IMG/VR virus record: IMGVR_UViG_3300029998_000020
Coordinates: 1-64,000 of that record
Length of the DNA: 64,000 nt
Reading direction: 5' to 3' (one strand)
Source: a virus
This document shows, piece by piece, positions 11,022-53,346 of this stretch. The notes beneath the pieces are model-generated. The model did no database searches. It was not told the origin of the DNA and saw only the letters and a program-made list of their open reading frames with translations. Numbering within the stretch: position 1 is the stretch's first letter; the number at the start of each line of letters is the position of its first letter. Made by a program: the position numbers and the translations under genes.

Positions 11022-11192
11022 TTATTTGGTTATGTTTTTATCTAAATATTCTTTCCACATCTGTTCAACAAATTCTGAACGATTTATATTGTTATCTTTG
11101 AGGTATTTATCTATCTTATCAAAAACATCATTATTTATTGATATGCTTATGTTCTTCTTCTTTTCTTCTGTTTCTTTTTTTGGTCTACCCAT
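11022..11192 (-). CDS. Ribbon-helix-helix DNA-binding protein, 56 aa
   Basis: The frame MGRPKKETEEKKKNISISIN ... DVFDKIDKYLKDNNINRSEF is a CopG/Arc-type ribbon-helix-helix protein: a basic GRPKK arm, a beta strand (NISISI), then two helices split by NINRSEF. It is divergent from the plus-strand RHH gene at 11302, with about 110 nt between them. It probably represses its own or neighbouring transcription. Confidence 0.85.
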   Translation of the reverse strand: MGRPKKETEEKKKNISISINNDVFDKIDKYLKDNNINRSEFVEQMWKEYLDKNITK

Positions 11193-11269
11193 GATTTATT
11201 TTATATTTTACTATTATATATGAAAAAATATTCTTGGTTTAAAAATAGAAAAATATGACTTATTTTTAT

Positions 11270-11280
11270 TTATATATAGA
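11270..11280 (+). promoter_or_regulatory. Putative late-type promoter (TATATATAGA)
   Basis: TTTATATATAGATAAAAATGA lies 22-32 nt upstream of the RHH start at 11302 and resembles the sequences before the RHH at 50706 and the gene at 57296, all three heading endonuclease-containing units. Confidence 0.4.
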
Positions 11281-11301: not shown

Positions 11302-11463
11302 ATGAAAACAGAAAGAAACACAAAAGTAATGTCAATAACTATAGATAAGGATGTATATGACAAAATATCAGAATTAGTTAATAACAAATCCAAATTTACT
11401 GAATGGCTATTCATTAACTATTTAGATAACATCGGAATTGATGTAAAAAATATAAAATTTTAA
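11302..11463 (+). CDS. Ribbon-helix-helix protein paired with endonuclease, 53 aa
   Basis: The frame MKTERNTKVMSITIDKDVYD ... ISELVNNKSKFTEWLFINYL shows the RHH pattern: strand MSITID, helix 1, turn NNKSKF, helix 2. It ends 1 nt before the HNH endonuclease start at 11465, so the two are almost certainly co-translated. A similar pair occurs at 50706-51825 with a different nuclease family. Confidence 0.8.
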   Translation: MKTERNTKVMSITIDKDVYDKISELVNNKSKFTEWLFINYLDNIGIDVKNIKF

Positions 11464-11464
11464 A

Positions 11465-12328
11465 ATGGATTATTTAAAAATATATAAAAAATTGATAACA
11501 AATGCAATAGAAAGGACAATTTCTGATAATGAAGTATATGAAAAACATCATATAATATCAAAATGTATATTCAATGATAACTATTCTATATCAGTATTTA
11601 ATGATTATTATAAATTAGTCAAATCAAAATATAGTCTTAGTAATGTAGTTAAATTAACACTAAGAGAGCATTATATTTCACATTTATTGTTGGTTAGAAT
11701 TTTTGAAAAAAATAAAAATTGTCATTTTAAATTATTATGTGCTGCAAATTTTTTGACCAACAGAACAAAAAATAATAGGGAATATGAATGGCAAAAGAAA
11801 GAATACATTGAGAAATTAAAAATATCTATGACTGGAAAGCCAAGTAGAGCAAAAGGAAAAAAATGGTCAGAAGAATCAAAGAAAAATAAATCAGGCACAA
11901 ATCATTATATGTATAATAAAAATTATGATGAACTTTATGGATTAGAAAAATCTCAAGAGTTGAAAGAAAATAGAAGAAATTCACAATTAGGTAGAATAAA
12001 ATCAACTGAAGAAAAAAATAAATTATCTAACAGAATATTCACAGAAGAATGGAAAAATAATATATCAAAAAATAAAAAAGGTAAAAAACTATCAGAAACA
12101 AATAAAGATAATATTAAGAAGTTTATGTTAAATCCAGATTTGAACCCGAATGTGGATCAGACATTATATAAATTTTACCATATAGATGGCAGGGAAATTA
12201 TATCAAGAAAAATTGAAATGAAAAAAAATTATAATTGTACAGACATACACAAAATAATAAGCGGTATTAGAAAAATTTCTAAAGGATGGAGGTATAAAGG
12301 AGAAATAATAAAAAAAAGTGATGAATAA
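11465..12328 (+). CDS. HNH homing endonuclease with NUMOD3-like repeats, 287 aa
   Basis: Residues about 25-75 hold an HNH-type core: YEKHHIISKC, a Leu-rich spacer, then VKLTLREHYISHLLL. Residues 125-210 carry NUMOD3-like DNA-binding repeats (GKPSRAKGKKWSEESKKN, KGKKLSETNKDNIKK), and the C-terminus (IHKIISGIRKISKGWRYKG) looks like a NUMOD1-type helix-turn-helix. It is plus strand in a minus-strand neighbourhood, between convergent gene ends, as expected for an inserted free-standing homing endonuclease. Confidence 0.85.
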   Translation: MDYLKIYKKLITNAIERTISDNEVYEKHHIISKCIFNDNYSISVFNDYYKLVKSKYSLSNVVKLTLREHYISHLLLVRIFEKNKNCHFKLLCAANFLTNRTKNNREYEWQKKEYIEKLKISMTGKPSRAKGKKWSEESKKNKSGTNHYMYNKNYDELYGLEKSQELKENRRNSQLGRIKSTEEKNKLSNRIFTEEWKNNISKNKKGKKLSETNKDNIKKFMLNPDLNPNVDQTLYKFYHIDGREIISRKIEMKKNYNCTDIHKIISGIRKISKGWRYKGEIIKKSDE

Positions 12329-42861: not shown

Positions 42862-43347
42862 TTAATTTTTCTTGGAGAGTAGAGATGTTATATCACTAAT
42901 AAACTTATCAGAATGTTTTGGATTCATATTTTCAACAATTGAAAAATTACCATTCCCTTTTACTTTTATTCCTTCTGTGATTTTTCTAAGTTCTGGCTTA
43001 GTTGAATAGTATTTCAATAAACTATTAACAAATTCATTAATATTCATTTTTAATTTTTCATTGTACTTAACAATGTGTAATTGATTATCTTTCTTTCTGA
43101 TAAAATAATCAGTATCAGAATATTTATTTTTAATTGTTTCAAGTATATCAGTTATATTACCGTTATTGAATTTGATAATTCTTTCTTCTAATATTTCAAT
43201 TGTTGAAGTAGAATCATCTTTAGGAGTCAATAAAACTTCTTCTTTTATAGGTTCATCTTCAATATAAGTATTAATTGAAATTTTAGATTCAGTAGGTATG
43301 TTTTGTACATTTAATGTATCAAAATCACTATAGCGTTTTATTGGCAT
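42862..43347 (-). CDS. Putative virion-associated protein, 161 aa
   Basis: Leader MPIKRYSDFDTLNVQNIPTE; acidic middle; the C-terminal half (IVKYNEKLKMNINEFVNSLL, NGNFSIVEN, KFISDITSLLSKK) is homologous to the C-terminal half of the protein at 57296-57700. Late-type TTAATATATAA motif upstream (about 43377-43390). Confidence 0.65.
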   Translation of the reverse strand: MPIKRYSDFDTLNVQNIPTESKISINTYIEDEPIKEEVLLTPKDDSTSTIEILEERIIKFNNGNITDILETIKNKYSDTDYFIRKKDNQLHIVKYNEKLKMNINEFVNSLLKYYSTKPELRKITEGIKVKGNGNFSIVENMNPKHSDKFISDITSLLSKKN

Positions 43348-43466
43348 ATTTTTTTATTAATTTTATATTAATTTATATTATATATTAATAAATTAAAGTC
43401 ATTTTATTTTTATTGACAAATAAATGTTATTTGTAGTTAAATAAATACCTTATTCATTCAAATTGT

Positions 43467-50460: not shown

Positions 50461-50465
50461 ATTTG

Positions 50466-50534
50466 AGCAAGAGGTCTGATTTGAACAGAATCTTTTTACT
50501 GGAAGTAAAAAGCATTAACATATGCTACCTCTGC
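50466..50534 (-). tRNA. tRNA-Gly(UCC)-like gene, possibly degenerate
   Basis: The minus strand folds as a cloverleaf. D arm GCAT...ATGC, anticodon arm TTTTA-CTTCCAG-TAAAA giving anticodon UCC (Gly), T arm with the GTTCAAATC loop. The acceptor GCAGAGG pairs with CCTCTTGC only with a bulge, the outermost T-stem pair is mismatched and the variable loop is very short. No CCA is encoded. A terminator follows directly. A modified or decayed Gly tRNA; homing endonucleases often lie beside such genes, as here. Confidence 0.6.
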
Positions 50535-50705
50535 ATTTTAATAATATAGTAATAAAAAAAATTATAGTTTATAAATTATATATAAATTTTAAATTACCAG
50601 AATCAAAAATTCTATATATTTTTCTATCTAACATAATTTGTCAATTAATTGGTATCAAAAAATTAATAAATACCACCTTTTTATTTTTATATATAAAAAT
50701 AAAAA

Positions 50706-50858
50706 ATGAAAAACAAATCAAAAATTTCGATATCATTAAAAAATGAATTGATAGATTATTTAAATGACTTGAGTTTAAATAAATCTAAATTTATAGAAAA
50801 ATTAATAGAAGAGTATAAAATAATAAAAATAAATAATGATAATAACAAAAAAAGTTAA
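50706..50858 (+). CDS. Ribbon-helix-helix protein paired with endonuclease, 50 aa
   Basis: MKNKSKISISLKNELIDYLN, DLSLNKSKFIEKLIEEYKII: strand KISISL, helix, turn LNKSKF, helix, the RHH pattern also seen at 11302 (NNKSKFTEWL). It overlaps the nuclease gene by 23 nt. Confidence 0.8.
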   Translation: MKNKSKISISLKNELIDYLNDLSLNKSKFIEKLIEEYKIIKINNDNNKKS

Positions 50859-51825
50859 AATTCATATTAAAGGAATATCAATAAAAAGATATAAAAAATT
50901 AGGTTATAATGTTGATACTAAAGGATTAAATACTATTAATGTTGAAGATCTTCCTAAATGTAGTAATATTAAAGTCATGGTGAAATGTGATAATTGTGAT
51001 TATGAAAAAGAATTAAAGATTCAAGATTATTATTTATCTTTTAAAAATAATAAATATTGTTGTAATAAATGCTCATATGAAAATTATAAAAAAACAATGT
51101 TAGAAAGATATGGAGTTGAAAATGGATTTCAATATAAAGACATAAAAGAAAAATCTAATAGCACTAAAATAAAATTATATGGAGATGAAAATTACAATAA
51201 TAGAGAAAAAGCGATAGAAACATGTTTAGATAAATATGGTGTTGAAAATCCTAATCAAAATTATAAAATAAAAAAAAAATCTAATAATACTTGCTTAGAA
51301 AAATATGGATTTGAAACAGCATCTAAAAATGAAAAAGTAAAGGAAAAAATAAAAAAAACAAATTTGAAAAGATGGAACAGTACATGTACATTACATTCAG
51401 AAAAACAAATTGATAAAATTAAACAAATATTTATTGATAAATATGGAGTTGATAATCCTATGAAGAATTTAGAAATATTTTTAAAAGCCCAAAAAACAGC
51501 TCTAAATCGTAAAAAATTTAAAGAAACTGAATTATTATATCAAGGTACATATGAATTAGATTTTTTAAATAATTATTATGAAAAAATTAATATTGAAAAT
51601 GGTAAATCAATAAAAATAATTTATAATAATAATAAAACTGTGTATCATTCTGATTTTTTTTTATCTGAAAAAAATTTAATTATAGAAATAAAATCATCAT
51701 ATTGGTATAATAGATATTATGATAAAAATATAATTAAACAAAAAGAATGTGAAAAATTAGGATATAATTATATCATAATAATAGATAAAAATTATAATGA
51801 TTTTAATAAATTAATAATGATTTAA
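50836..51825 (+). CDS. Free-standing homing endonuclease, PD-(D/E)XK/Vsr-like, 329 aa
   Basis: An N-terminal zinc-ribbon (VKCDNCDYEKEL ... YCCNKCSYE) is followed by repeated ~30-residue DNA-binding units with the signature YGVENPxQ (LERYGVENGFQYKDIKEKSN, LDKYGVENPNQNYKIKKKSN, IDKYGVDNPMKN). The C-terminal nuclease domain has VYHSDFFLSEKNLIIEIKSS with Asp and Glu-Ile-Lys as active-site residues, then KQKECEKLGYNYIIIIDKNY. It lies between a tRNA-like gene and the split polymerase gene. The remnant inside guaB (4781-4906) is from the same family. Confidence 0.85.
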   Translation: MIITKKVKIHIKGISIKRYKKLGYNVDTKGLNTINVEDLPKCSNIKVMVKCDNCDYEKELKIQDYYLSFKNNKYCCNKCSYENYKKTMLERYGVENGFQYKDIKEKSNSTKIKLYGDENYNNREKAIETCLDKYGVENPNQNYKIKKKSNNTCLEKYGFETASKNEKVKEKIKKTNLKRWNSTCTLHSEKQIDKIKQIFIDKYGVDNPMKNLEIFLKAQKTALNRKKFKETELLYQGTYELDFLNNYYEKINIENGKSIKIIYNNNKTVYHSDFFLSEKNLIIEIKSSYWYNRYYDKNIIKQKECEKLGYNYIIIIDKNYNDFNKLIMI

Positions 51826-51866
51826 AATAAAACAACTTAGATTTTAATCTAAGTTGTTTTATTTTT
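51824..51866. terminator. Bidirectional terminator
   Basis: An 18-bp stem AATAAAACAACTTAGATT with AATCTAAGTTGTTTTATT between convergent genes. Confidence 0.85.
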
Positions 51867-53346
51867 ATATATTTGTTTCTTCTAATTTTTTTAATTCATC
51901 TTTTAACTTTTCAAGTTCTTCGTGTTTTTGATTCATTACTTTCTTCCATTTTTTTCTATCAGAATAAACTTCTCCCATTACTTGAGTAACAACACCATCT
52001 TCATTCTTAAATACTGATCCATTGAGAGTTACAATATCATCAGGTTCAATTGTTAATTGATGTCCATTAAATAATGAGTAATCTTTACCTTTTACTTTTT
52101 GTCCTTTATATGAGTCTGCTGATATGTTAAATTCTCTCATTGTGGTAGGATACAGGGATGCGAAGTCAAAACAACAAGTCCATGTTGCCATTCCTCTCAC
52201 TGGATCTTTAACCCATCCACCTTTAATAGATTCAGATTCAGAATCACTATATTCACTATCTTCATTTCTTACAAGTACAATATTCTTTTGATCTCTTAAT
52301 TTTTCTCTTAAAATTCCTTCTGTCAGTGCAAGTGTTGAAATTGCATCTTTAATTTTAATTTTACCTAATACAGCCATACCATAAAGAATATCTACATATT
52401 TCATTTTAACGTGAATTCTTTGTACCAGACAACTATCTACAGCATTATAAAAAACGAATTTCTTAAAATCTTCTCTATGTAATCTTTTTAAATCTCCATC
52501 ATAGTTAATTTTCTTGACTTCTTTACCAAGAATTTTTTCTGATGCAAAATCAAGAGATAAACTTTCTTTAACTTTAACAGATTGATCCCATTTCTTAAAT
52601 AATTCCATATAATCCACTATAACTCTATGAGCTGGTAATTCAGCATAATCTAAATGTATTGCATTAGGAGGATTGAATGGTTTGTTAAGTTTCTTTGTGA
52701 AAGATGCTACTTCAGGTTCTAGTCCTAATTTTCTTGCCCTTGCAACTAAGAATGTCCAGTCATATGCAATAAAATTCCAGCCAGTCATTACTGGCATTTT
52801 TGGAACTAATTTATTGAAAAATGCATGAAGCATATCAAATTCAGTTTTATAATGAACATATTTAAATTTATAATCAGTATCAAATTTTTTGAAGTGAGTA
52901 TTTAAATCTGATTCAATGTTTTCAATTTGTTTTGAATCCAGTGATTCTGTTCCAATTACTAACACTTTATTCTTATTTACAATTGATATTGTTTGAATCG
53001 CACTTTCTGCTAAATGAGGTTCAGGTTTTTTATCTAATATTTCATTTTCAATATCGACAAAGAATATATCTGGTTCATTATAACTATATATTTCATTTTT
53101 TTCATCTTCATCAAAACTATCAATAAAATCATAAATAGAATATCTATTAGGATATTTTGTGAATATTTCTTTTACAGCACTACCATCCCATGTAACATAT
53201 CTACCAGATTTTTCTGAATCATCATCAGTAGTTTTTATGAATTTTGTACATCTTGCCCAAGGTTTATATTTTAATTTTATTTGACCTGATTTATCTATGT
53301 AACTTATTATAAGGTTATTATTTCTGTATTCTGTGTCTATAAGCAT
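51865..53346 (-). CDS. Family B DNA polymerase, N-terminal part (gp43-like), 493 aa
   Basis: Exonuclease motifs: FFVDIENE (Asp98, Glu100), GWNFIAYDWTFL and FYNAVDSCLV; then polymerase motif A, CCFDFASLYPTTMREFNISA (about residue 393). The frame ends soon after, in DRKKWKKVMNQKHEELEKLK, which corresponds to the fingers domain, so motifs B (KxxxNSxYG) and C (DTD) are missing. No intein sequence at the end. The C-terminal half must be encoded outside the window for activity. Split gene 43 is known in some Aeromonas T4-like phages. Confidence 0.9.
   Translation of the reverse strand: MLIDTEYRNNNLIISYIDKSGQIKLKYKPWARCTKFIKTTDDDSEKSGRYVTWDGSAVKEIFTKYPNRYSIYDFIDSFDEDEKNEIYSYNEPDIFFVDIENEILDKKPEPHLAESAIQTISIVNKNKVLVIGTESLDSKQIENIESDLNTHFKKFDTDYKFKYVHYKTEFDMLHAFFNKLVPKMPVMTGWNFIAYDWTFLVARARKLGLEPEVASFTKKLNKPFNPPNAIHLDYAELPAHRVIVDYMELFKKWDQSVKVKESLSLDFASEKILGKEVKKINYDGDLKRLHREDFKKFVFYNAVDSCLVQRIHVKMKYVDILYGMAVLGKIKIKDAISTLALTEGILREKLRDQKNIVLVRNEDSEYSDSESESIKGGWVKDPVRGMATWTCCFDFASLYPTTMREFNISADSYKGQKVKGKDYSLFNGHQLTIEPDDIVTLNGSVFKNEDGVVTQVMGEVYSDRKKWKKVMNQKHEELEKLKDELKKLEETNI

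Follow-up and report, generated by a model that had tools for sequence, protein, structure and literature searches.

The window analysed here, 64,000 nucleotides corresponding to positions 1 to 64,000 of the IMG/VR virus record IMGVR_UViG_3300029998_000020, contains two pairs of RHH and nuclease genes. The second of these, hereafter pair 2, is flanked by a tRNA-Gly-like gene on one side and a DNA polymerase gene on the other (Table 1). Its first gene encodes a 50-aa RHH protein (P0002), and its second gene a free-standing homing-type endonuclease (P0001). The two ORFs share positions 50836-50858, so that the 23-nt overlap proposed in the first-pass annotation of this DNA is confirmed by the ORF coordinates. 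The start assigned to P0001 fits those of its relatives, whose first residues, MI[IL][TS]K, align with it. A hairpin separates the convergent nuclease and polymerase genes and is likely a two-way terminator. Compared with the copies found in locus L005, the tRNA-Gly-like gene displayed a compensatory A-T/T-A change in the acceptor stem. The exact pair was found in a single phage, represented by the window and two identical contigs.

Table 1 Coordinates of pair 2, of the first pair and of neighbouring features in the window
Feature	Position	Strand	Remarks
RHH-B partner of the first pair	11022-11192	-	Passes Pfam RHH_1 (22.5 vs 20.5)
TGACTT-N5-TATTTATATATA element of the first pair	11256-11278		Perfect
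RHH-A of the first pair	11302-11463	+	
Homing nuclease of the first pair	11465-12328	+	HNH-type
tRNA-Gly(UCC)-like gene	50465-50534	-	ARAGORN; flanks the insert
3' remnant of an earlier, larger DUF7487/Vsr-type homing endonuclease gene	50569-50640	-	Reads MLDRKIYRIFDSGNLKFIYNL*
CCACCT, putative degenerate counterpart of the TGACTT box	50673-50678	+	Same 5-nt spacing to promoter; 3/6 positions agree
Phage-type promoter TTTATATATAAAAATAAAA	50686-50704	+	Just upstream of RHH start; 4 in the window vs 0.13 expected by chance
RHH ORF of pair 2 (P0002)	50706-50858	+	50 aa; CopG/Arc-like regulator; type A, short helix A-B loop
Nuclease ORF of pair 2 (P0001)	50836-51825	+	329 aa; free-standing homing-type endonuclease
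Hairpin	51824-51865	.	19-bp stem; none in shuffles
N-terminal half of split B-family DNA polymerase	51865-53346	-	Exonuclease and palm motif A; Pfam, PHROG 2062

The tRNA-Gly-like genes of this phage group occur in other settings as well. At L005 (9460-11540), two copies flank a 1.9-kb gene pair with HExxH motifs, and several HExxH proteins with capsid-targeting-like N-termini (MKKYLNFINEG...) were found in these phages. A candidate RHH gene upstream of an HExxH gene (L005 2906-3024) was rejected, as it was a low-complexity match with no open RHH frame.

The nuclease of pair 2 is composed of an N-terminal Cys domain (residues 1-75), KYG/DUF7487 helical repeats (77-222) and a C-terminal PD-(D/E)XK domain (about 237-329). 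P0001 matched DUF7487 with an E-value of 1.6e-37 (130 bits, above the Pfam cut-off of 27), and also PHROG homing endonuclease families. In its AlphaFold2 model (pLDDT 84.8), the N-terminal part folds as a mixed domain, the KYG repeats line up as a row of helix pairs, and the C-terminal part is an alpha-beta domain. The closest structure to the latter was the catalytic domain of I-Bth0305I (Z 8.7, rmsd 2.7 over 84 residues, 24% identity), with Vsr and TnsA ranking close after it, and a sequence profile independently placed I-Bth0305I (PDB 3r3p) first, albeit weakly (E 0.036). An alignment of ten P0001 relatives revealed that E240, D273, E284 and K286 are invariant, and that C51, C54, C76 and C79 of the N-terminal domain are kept as well. 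The alpha-beta core carries D ... (D/E)-x-K on adjacent strands. The PD-(D/E)XK assignment made from the sequence alone thus withstood both the residue and the fold comparison, and P0001 is predicted to be a nuclease of this class that would cleave DNA in a metal-dependent manner. Although I-Bth0305I, an EDxHD/Vsr-like homing endonuclease, is the best structural match of the catalytic domain, P0001 differs from it in having the invariant D273 and E284-x-K286, and its target recognition is putatively assigned to the KYG repeats.

P0002 was recovered by a leave-one-out profile made from the 39 other RHH proteins of these phages, with an E-value of 8.9e-9 among 1796 short ORFs and a high composition bias, for which 21.6 bits were subtracted. 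It scored 28.2 bits against the A-type model and 20.1 bits against the B-type model. Single-sequence searches of Pfam, PHROG and NCBIfam gave weak matches (CcdA, E 0.01; Arc-like PHROG, 0.03; MazE, 1e-4), and P0002 alone fell below the curated Pfam cut-offs for CcdA (16.6 vs 22.4) and RHH_3 (13.3 vs 21.6). The family profile reached CopG and the antitoxin Rv0298 in the PDB. The AlphaFold2 model (pLDDT 77) placed helices at residues 13-23 and 26-49; the beta strand was not formed in this monomer model, and the Foldseek match was weak, with no confident fold match. The RHH pattern of a beta strand, a helix, an N/G-x-S turn and a second helix was recognised from the family alignment, the leave-one-out profile and the modelled helices. 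Judged by its sequence, P0002 is a real RHH gene. The NKSKF turn said to be common to both pairs of the window is indeed present (N[KR]SK[FY]), but it is general to nearly the whole RHH set, and we rejected it as a special link between the two pairs.

The polymerase gene next to pair 2 stops between PolB motifs A and B. Its relatives in IMG/VR stop at almost the same residue, as does the gene of the 735-kb phage LR756501. The C-terminal half was located in the 330-kb contig G001, which is identical to the window over the compared stretch: a 453-aa ORF at G001:23642-25003 contains motif B (KLVINGTYGAF) and motif C (YGDTDS). The location given in the first-pass annotation, between a tRNA-like gene and a truncated polymerase gene, holds, but the label 'truncated' is wrong: the relatives have closely similar gene ends and the C-terminal half exists as a separate gene, and on these grounds truncation by insertion was rejected. 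Motif content and gene ends characterise the polymerase gene as a natural two-piece PolB. The C-terminal half lies about 86 kb from the N-terminal half, directly behind two homing nucleases, and is followed by a third nuclease-like ORF. In Aeromonas phage 25, gene 43 is likewise split (43A/43B) and the seg43(25) nuclease lies beside it (PMC2988022). Both cases place a free-standing nuclease gene beside a DNA polymerase gene in two functional pieces. However, that nuclease is Seg-like, whereas the one described here is of the DUF7487/PD-(D/E)XK type, and the polymerase pieces are here 86 kb apart, both beside nuclease genes.

The content of this site varies among related phages. In L003 and L004, whose polymerases are 91% identical to that of the window, there is no nuclease, RHH gene or tRNA, and a 168-aa ORF directly follows the polymerase. 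In L179, a P0001 ortholog (70% identical) occupies the site, and both the RHH gene and the tRNA are missing. Meanwhile, the L005 group, L010/L011 and L014 carry another, larger DUF7487/Vsr-type nuclease on the opposite strand. The site is therefore occupied in the window and L179, empty in L003/L004, and held by a different nuclease in L005, L010 and L014, as for a free-standing homing endonuclease. Between the tRNA and the RHH gene of the window, we identified a relic of the larger nuclease, overlooked in the first-pass annotation, with its last 20 or so codons kept (LDRKIYRIFDSGNLKFIYNL), whose translation matches the C-terminus of the intact nucleases in L005, L010 and L014 (80-84% DNA identity over 72-80 nt), indicating that pair 2 replaced an older nuclease. 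Together with the L179 ortholog, this relic marks the site as a nuclease hot spot and the RHH gene as an optional partner, dispensable for persistence since the L179 ortholog lacks it. Among 20 polymerase loci (two of them from the window phage), an RHH gene on this side of the polymerase was found in the window phage only, together with the nuclease; 5' of the polymerase gene, nine loci have RHH-A, RHH-B and a nuclease together. Comparison of the flanks with phages lacking the insertion thus supports the mobility and favoured insertion site that had been suspected. An RHH gene conserved here in phages without the nuclease, named beforehand as evidence to the contrary, did not turn up in these 20 loci, and the view of RHH and nuclease as a pair stands as an association, not as an obligate one.

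RHH genes accompany mobile nucleases repeatedly in these phages. A profile search of four related contigs (889 kb) yielded 23 clear RHH genes, 20 of which form ten divergent pairs in which RHH-A faces away from RHH-B. RHH-A is about five residues shorter than RHH-B and abuts or overlaps the nuclease gene. Across the four contigs, an RHH gene lies directly upstream of 13 of the 34 mobile nucleases versus 7 of the 1413 other genes (odds ratio 124, p 3.5e-18), and six of these seven are neighbours of RHH-B. The nucleases behind RHH genes belong to the DUF7487, treble-clef, GIY-YIG, HNH, LAGLIDADG and TnpB classes. Distances among RHH-A proteins correlate with those among RHH-B proteins (Mantel r 0.72, p 5e-5), also at nine non-orthologous sites (r 0.68, p 2e-4). 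Behind closely related RHH pairs, the nuclease differs (treble-clef vs TnpB, the TnpB being confirmed, and DUF7487 vs GIY-YIG). As far as these comparisons reach, RHH-A and RHH-B are inherited together while the nuclease behind them changes from one unrelated fold to another. At empty sites, too, the two RHH genes and the nuclease are missing together: G001 187.4-189.1 kb compared with G002, where a 50-nt gap separates the flanking genes, and G001 0.4-2.7 kb compared with G003.

The first pair of the window is a complete divergent RHH-B/RHH-A cassette, missing at the matching place in G003. Divergent pairs of this type are the prevailing layout in this phage group, and the RHH-B gene of the first pair had escaped the first-pass annotation. 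Pair 2 has the overlap and the A-type indel pattern of such cassettes, but no minus-strand RHH gene was found near 50500-50700, nor a divergent RHH-B within about 150 nt. The most fitting view of pair 2 is that of a reduced cassette in which the A-type RHH, the overlap and the promoter were kept. Nucleases of the P0001 family occur in L202 with an overlapping RHH gene (29 nt), in L177 with a full divergent RHH pair, in L089 and at G002:107081 beside a divergent RHH-like gene, and in L179 and L205 without RHH.

Some of these cassettes have unusual neighbours. At L085 16113-17432 (G006 113613-114932), a TnpB gene (Cas12f1-like_TNB, 1e-13) lies directly behind an RHH-A that is divergent from an RHH-B and a radical-SAM-like gene. 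L049 (G001 177290-182261) contains a topoisomerase II gene in two halves with an RHH-A/RHH-B cassette and a DUF7487-HNH nuclease between them, a 'fractured gene', along with an apparent split intein C-half (ending ...VHN before the C-extein). At L089 2164-4789 (LR756501), where the P0001-family nuclease is divergent from the RHH gene, an adenine methyltransferase gene begins 9 nt after the RHH, and this could be a restriction-modification-like element.

The P0002 gene could be an unrelated small phage gene that lies upstream of the nuclease by chance, with no functional unit between the two. The RHH-less L179 nuclease, the confinement of the exact pair to one phage and the many phages that have RHH genes are all consistent with this. 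However, the strong statistical association of RHH genes with mobile nucleases, the independent overlapping pair in L202, the divergent arrangement in L177 and the fact that, in the 20 polymerase loci, an RHH gene was never seen at this site without the nuclease make such a coincidence distinctly improbable. Another possibility is that of a toxin-antitoxin module, in which the RHH protein, as the antitoxin, would inhibit the nuclease by binding it and would also repress the operon. Type II modules usually have such a layout, with a small RHH gene that overlaps the nuclease gene behind it, and the matches of P0002 to the CcdA and MazE antitoxins, weak as they are, point the same way. Nevertheless, RHH proteins of 47-62 aa barely exceed the DNA-binding fold and leave almost no toxin-binding tail, while closely related RHH-A proteins precede unrelated nucleases, swaps that a specific inhibitor would not allow. 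The L179 nuclease persists without any RHH, and PADLOC gave no match. We consider a toxin-antitoxin module very unlikely.

The DNA upstream of these genes provided insights into their possible regulation. The TATATATA...TAAAA part is a promoter in general use among these phages, also found before structural genes, and 106 of 130 matches to a looser form of the promoter in relatives lie at most 90 nt upstream of genes. RHH-A genes are preceded by an extended form, TGACTT-N5-TATTTATATATA-N-TAAAA. Elsewhere, the TGACTT part is seldom seen (9/13 vs 4/256; since the motif was found by looking, the p-value of this comparison is optimistic). It also precedes all five RHH-A genes from other phages, which were not part of the sample behind the motif. 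A complete DNA-only scan of 2.9 million viral contigs returned 70 loci, some of them from the contigs that supplied the motif, with an RHH gene directly downstream in 46 and a spacing of exactly 5 in 68. Reduced to 49 distinct cases, 29 had an RHH gene directly downstream and 22 had an RHH-B. The same scan of bacterial genomes gave eight matches, none of which had a spacing of 5 or an RHH gene. At pair 2, the corresponding sequence is CCACCT-N5-TTTTTATATATA (50673-50695), outside the matches with up to three mismatches; a related nuclease (G002:107308) is preceded by TGACCT. Given this poor TGACTT box (3/6) and the missing RHH-B, the regulation of pair 2 may be lost or different.

The TGACTT element may serve as an operator for regulators acting in trans, or as a promoter element. 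Since some nucleases (L221, L233, L301) carry the box without RHH-A, it may be a promoter element rather than an RHH operator, and we do not accept it as a proven operator. The same promoter element precedes a MerR-like (IS607 TnpA-like) gene in L220, L224 and L244. In the window, a TGACTT-N5 promoter-like element with one mismatch (43379-43401, minus strand) lies upstream of the ORF at 42862-43347 (MPIKRYSDF...), which is not a nuclease; this upstream element is conserved in G002. A perfect 28-nt A/T palindrome at 50678-50705 was set aside, as by our own estimate it is expected by chance in such AT-rich DNA.

The RHH protein might instead activate the nuclease gene or time its expression, so that the nuclease comes on late in infection. 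The promoter type serves many genes in these phages, structural ones included, and the TGACTT box lies upstream of the promoter core at a fixed 5-nt spacing, where activators also bind. However, nucleases without RHH have the same promoter, many small RHH proteins, such as Arc and CopG, are repressors, and the T4 homing nucleases whose regulation is known are repressed (PMC2988022). Activation is thus an unlikely role for this protein.

Based on these findings, we postulate, with a probability of roughly two in three, that pair 2 consists of a mobile homing nuclease gene and a dedicated RHH transcriptional regulator that are transcribed together. The gene content, the overlap, the domains, the presence and absence at the site and the recurrent company of RHH genes and mobile nucleases are the observations from which this reading starts. 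Gene order and motif suggest that the RHH protein is probably an autorepressor. Both genes would be transcribed from the phage-type promoter. The N-terminal domain and helical repeats of the nuclease would recognise a long DNA site, which its PD-(D/E)XK domain would cut, and repair of the cut would copy the element into phages lacking it. The element occupies a nuclease hot spot where the naturally split polymerase gene breaks off, and took the place of an older nuclease there. Most likely, a dimer of the RHH protein binds the promoter DNA before its own gene, which would limit transcription of the nuclease.

Homing endonucleases are well known, but to our knowledge few ways of restraining the free-standing ones have been studied, namely self-repression and RNA hairpins. 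I-TevI and other homing endonucleases of T4 introns are autorepressed at a late promoter (PMC2988022). This is reminiscent of pair 2, a homing nuclease under a phage promoter with a presumed operator-based brake. Yet I-TevI is its own repressor, whereas in the phages studied here the candidate regulator is encoded apart from the nuclease, by an RHH gene or, more usually, a pair of them, and the nuclease is not in an intron. The separate RHH protein would thus do the job that I-TevI does with its own DNA-binding domain. Interchangeable homing nucleases have been described in phages as HEG islands, where, as here, a nuclease can give way to an unrelated one at a given essential-gene site, although no regulator genes are described there (PMC10448857). 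A literature search, which reached few subscription journals, found no published RHH-homing nuclease pairs. Pair 2 is a known kind of mobile gene, a homing nuclease, with an unusual, recurrent companion whose regulatory role is suggested by gene order and motif.

More tentatively, and at somewhat less than even odds, unrelated selfish nucleases of T4-like huge phages (LAGLIDADG, GIY-YIG, HNH, PD-(D/E)XK/Vsr and TnpB) may have converged on one portable cassette of two divergent RHH genes and TGACTT-N5-TATTTATATATA, forming a common regulon. RHH proteins would then act in trans on other elements and set when all of them fire, with pair 2 as an eroded member. If true, a swappable two-protein regulator common to unrelated nuclease folds, TnpB included, would be a new form of selfish-gene control, and a short DNA element would mark mobile nucleases in phage genomes.
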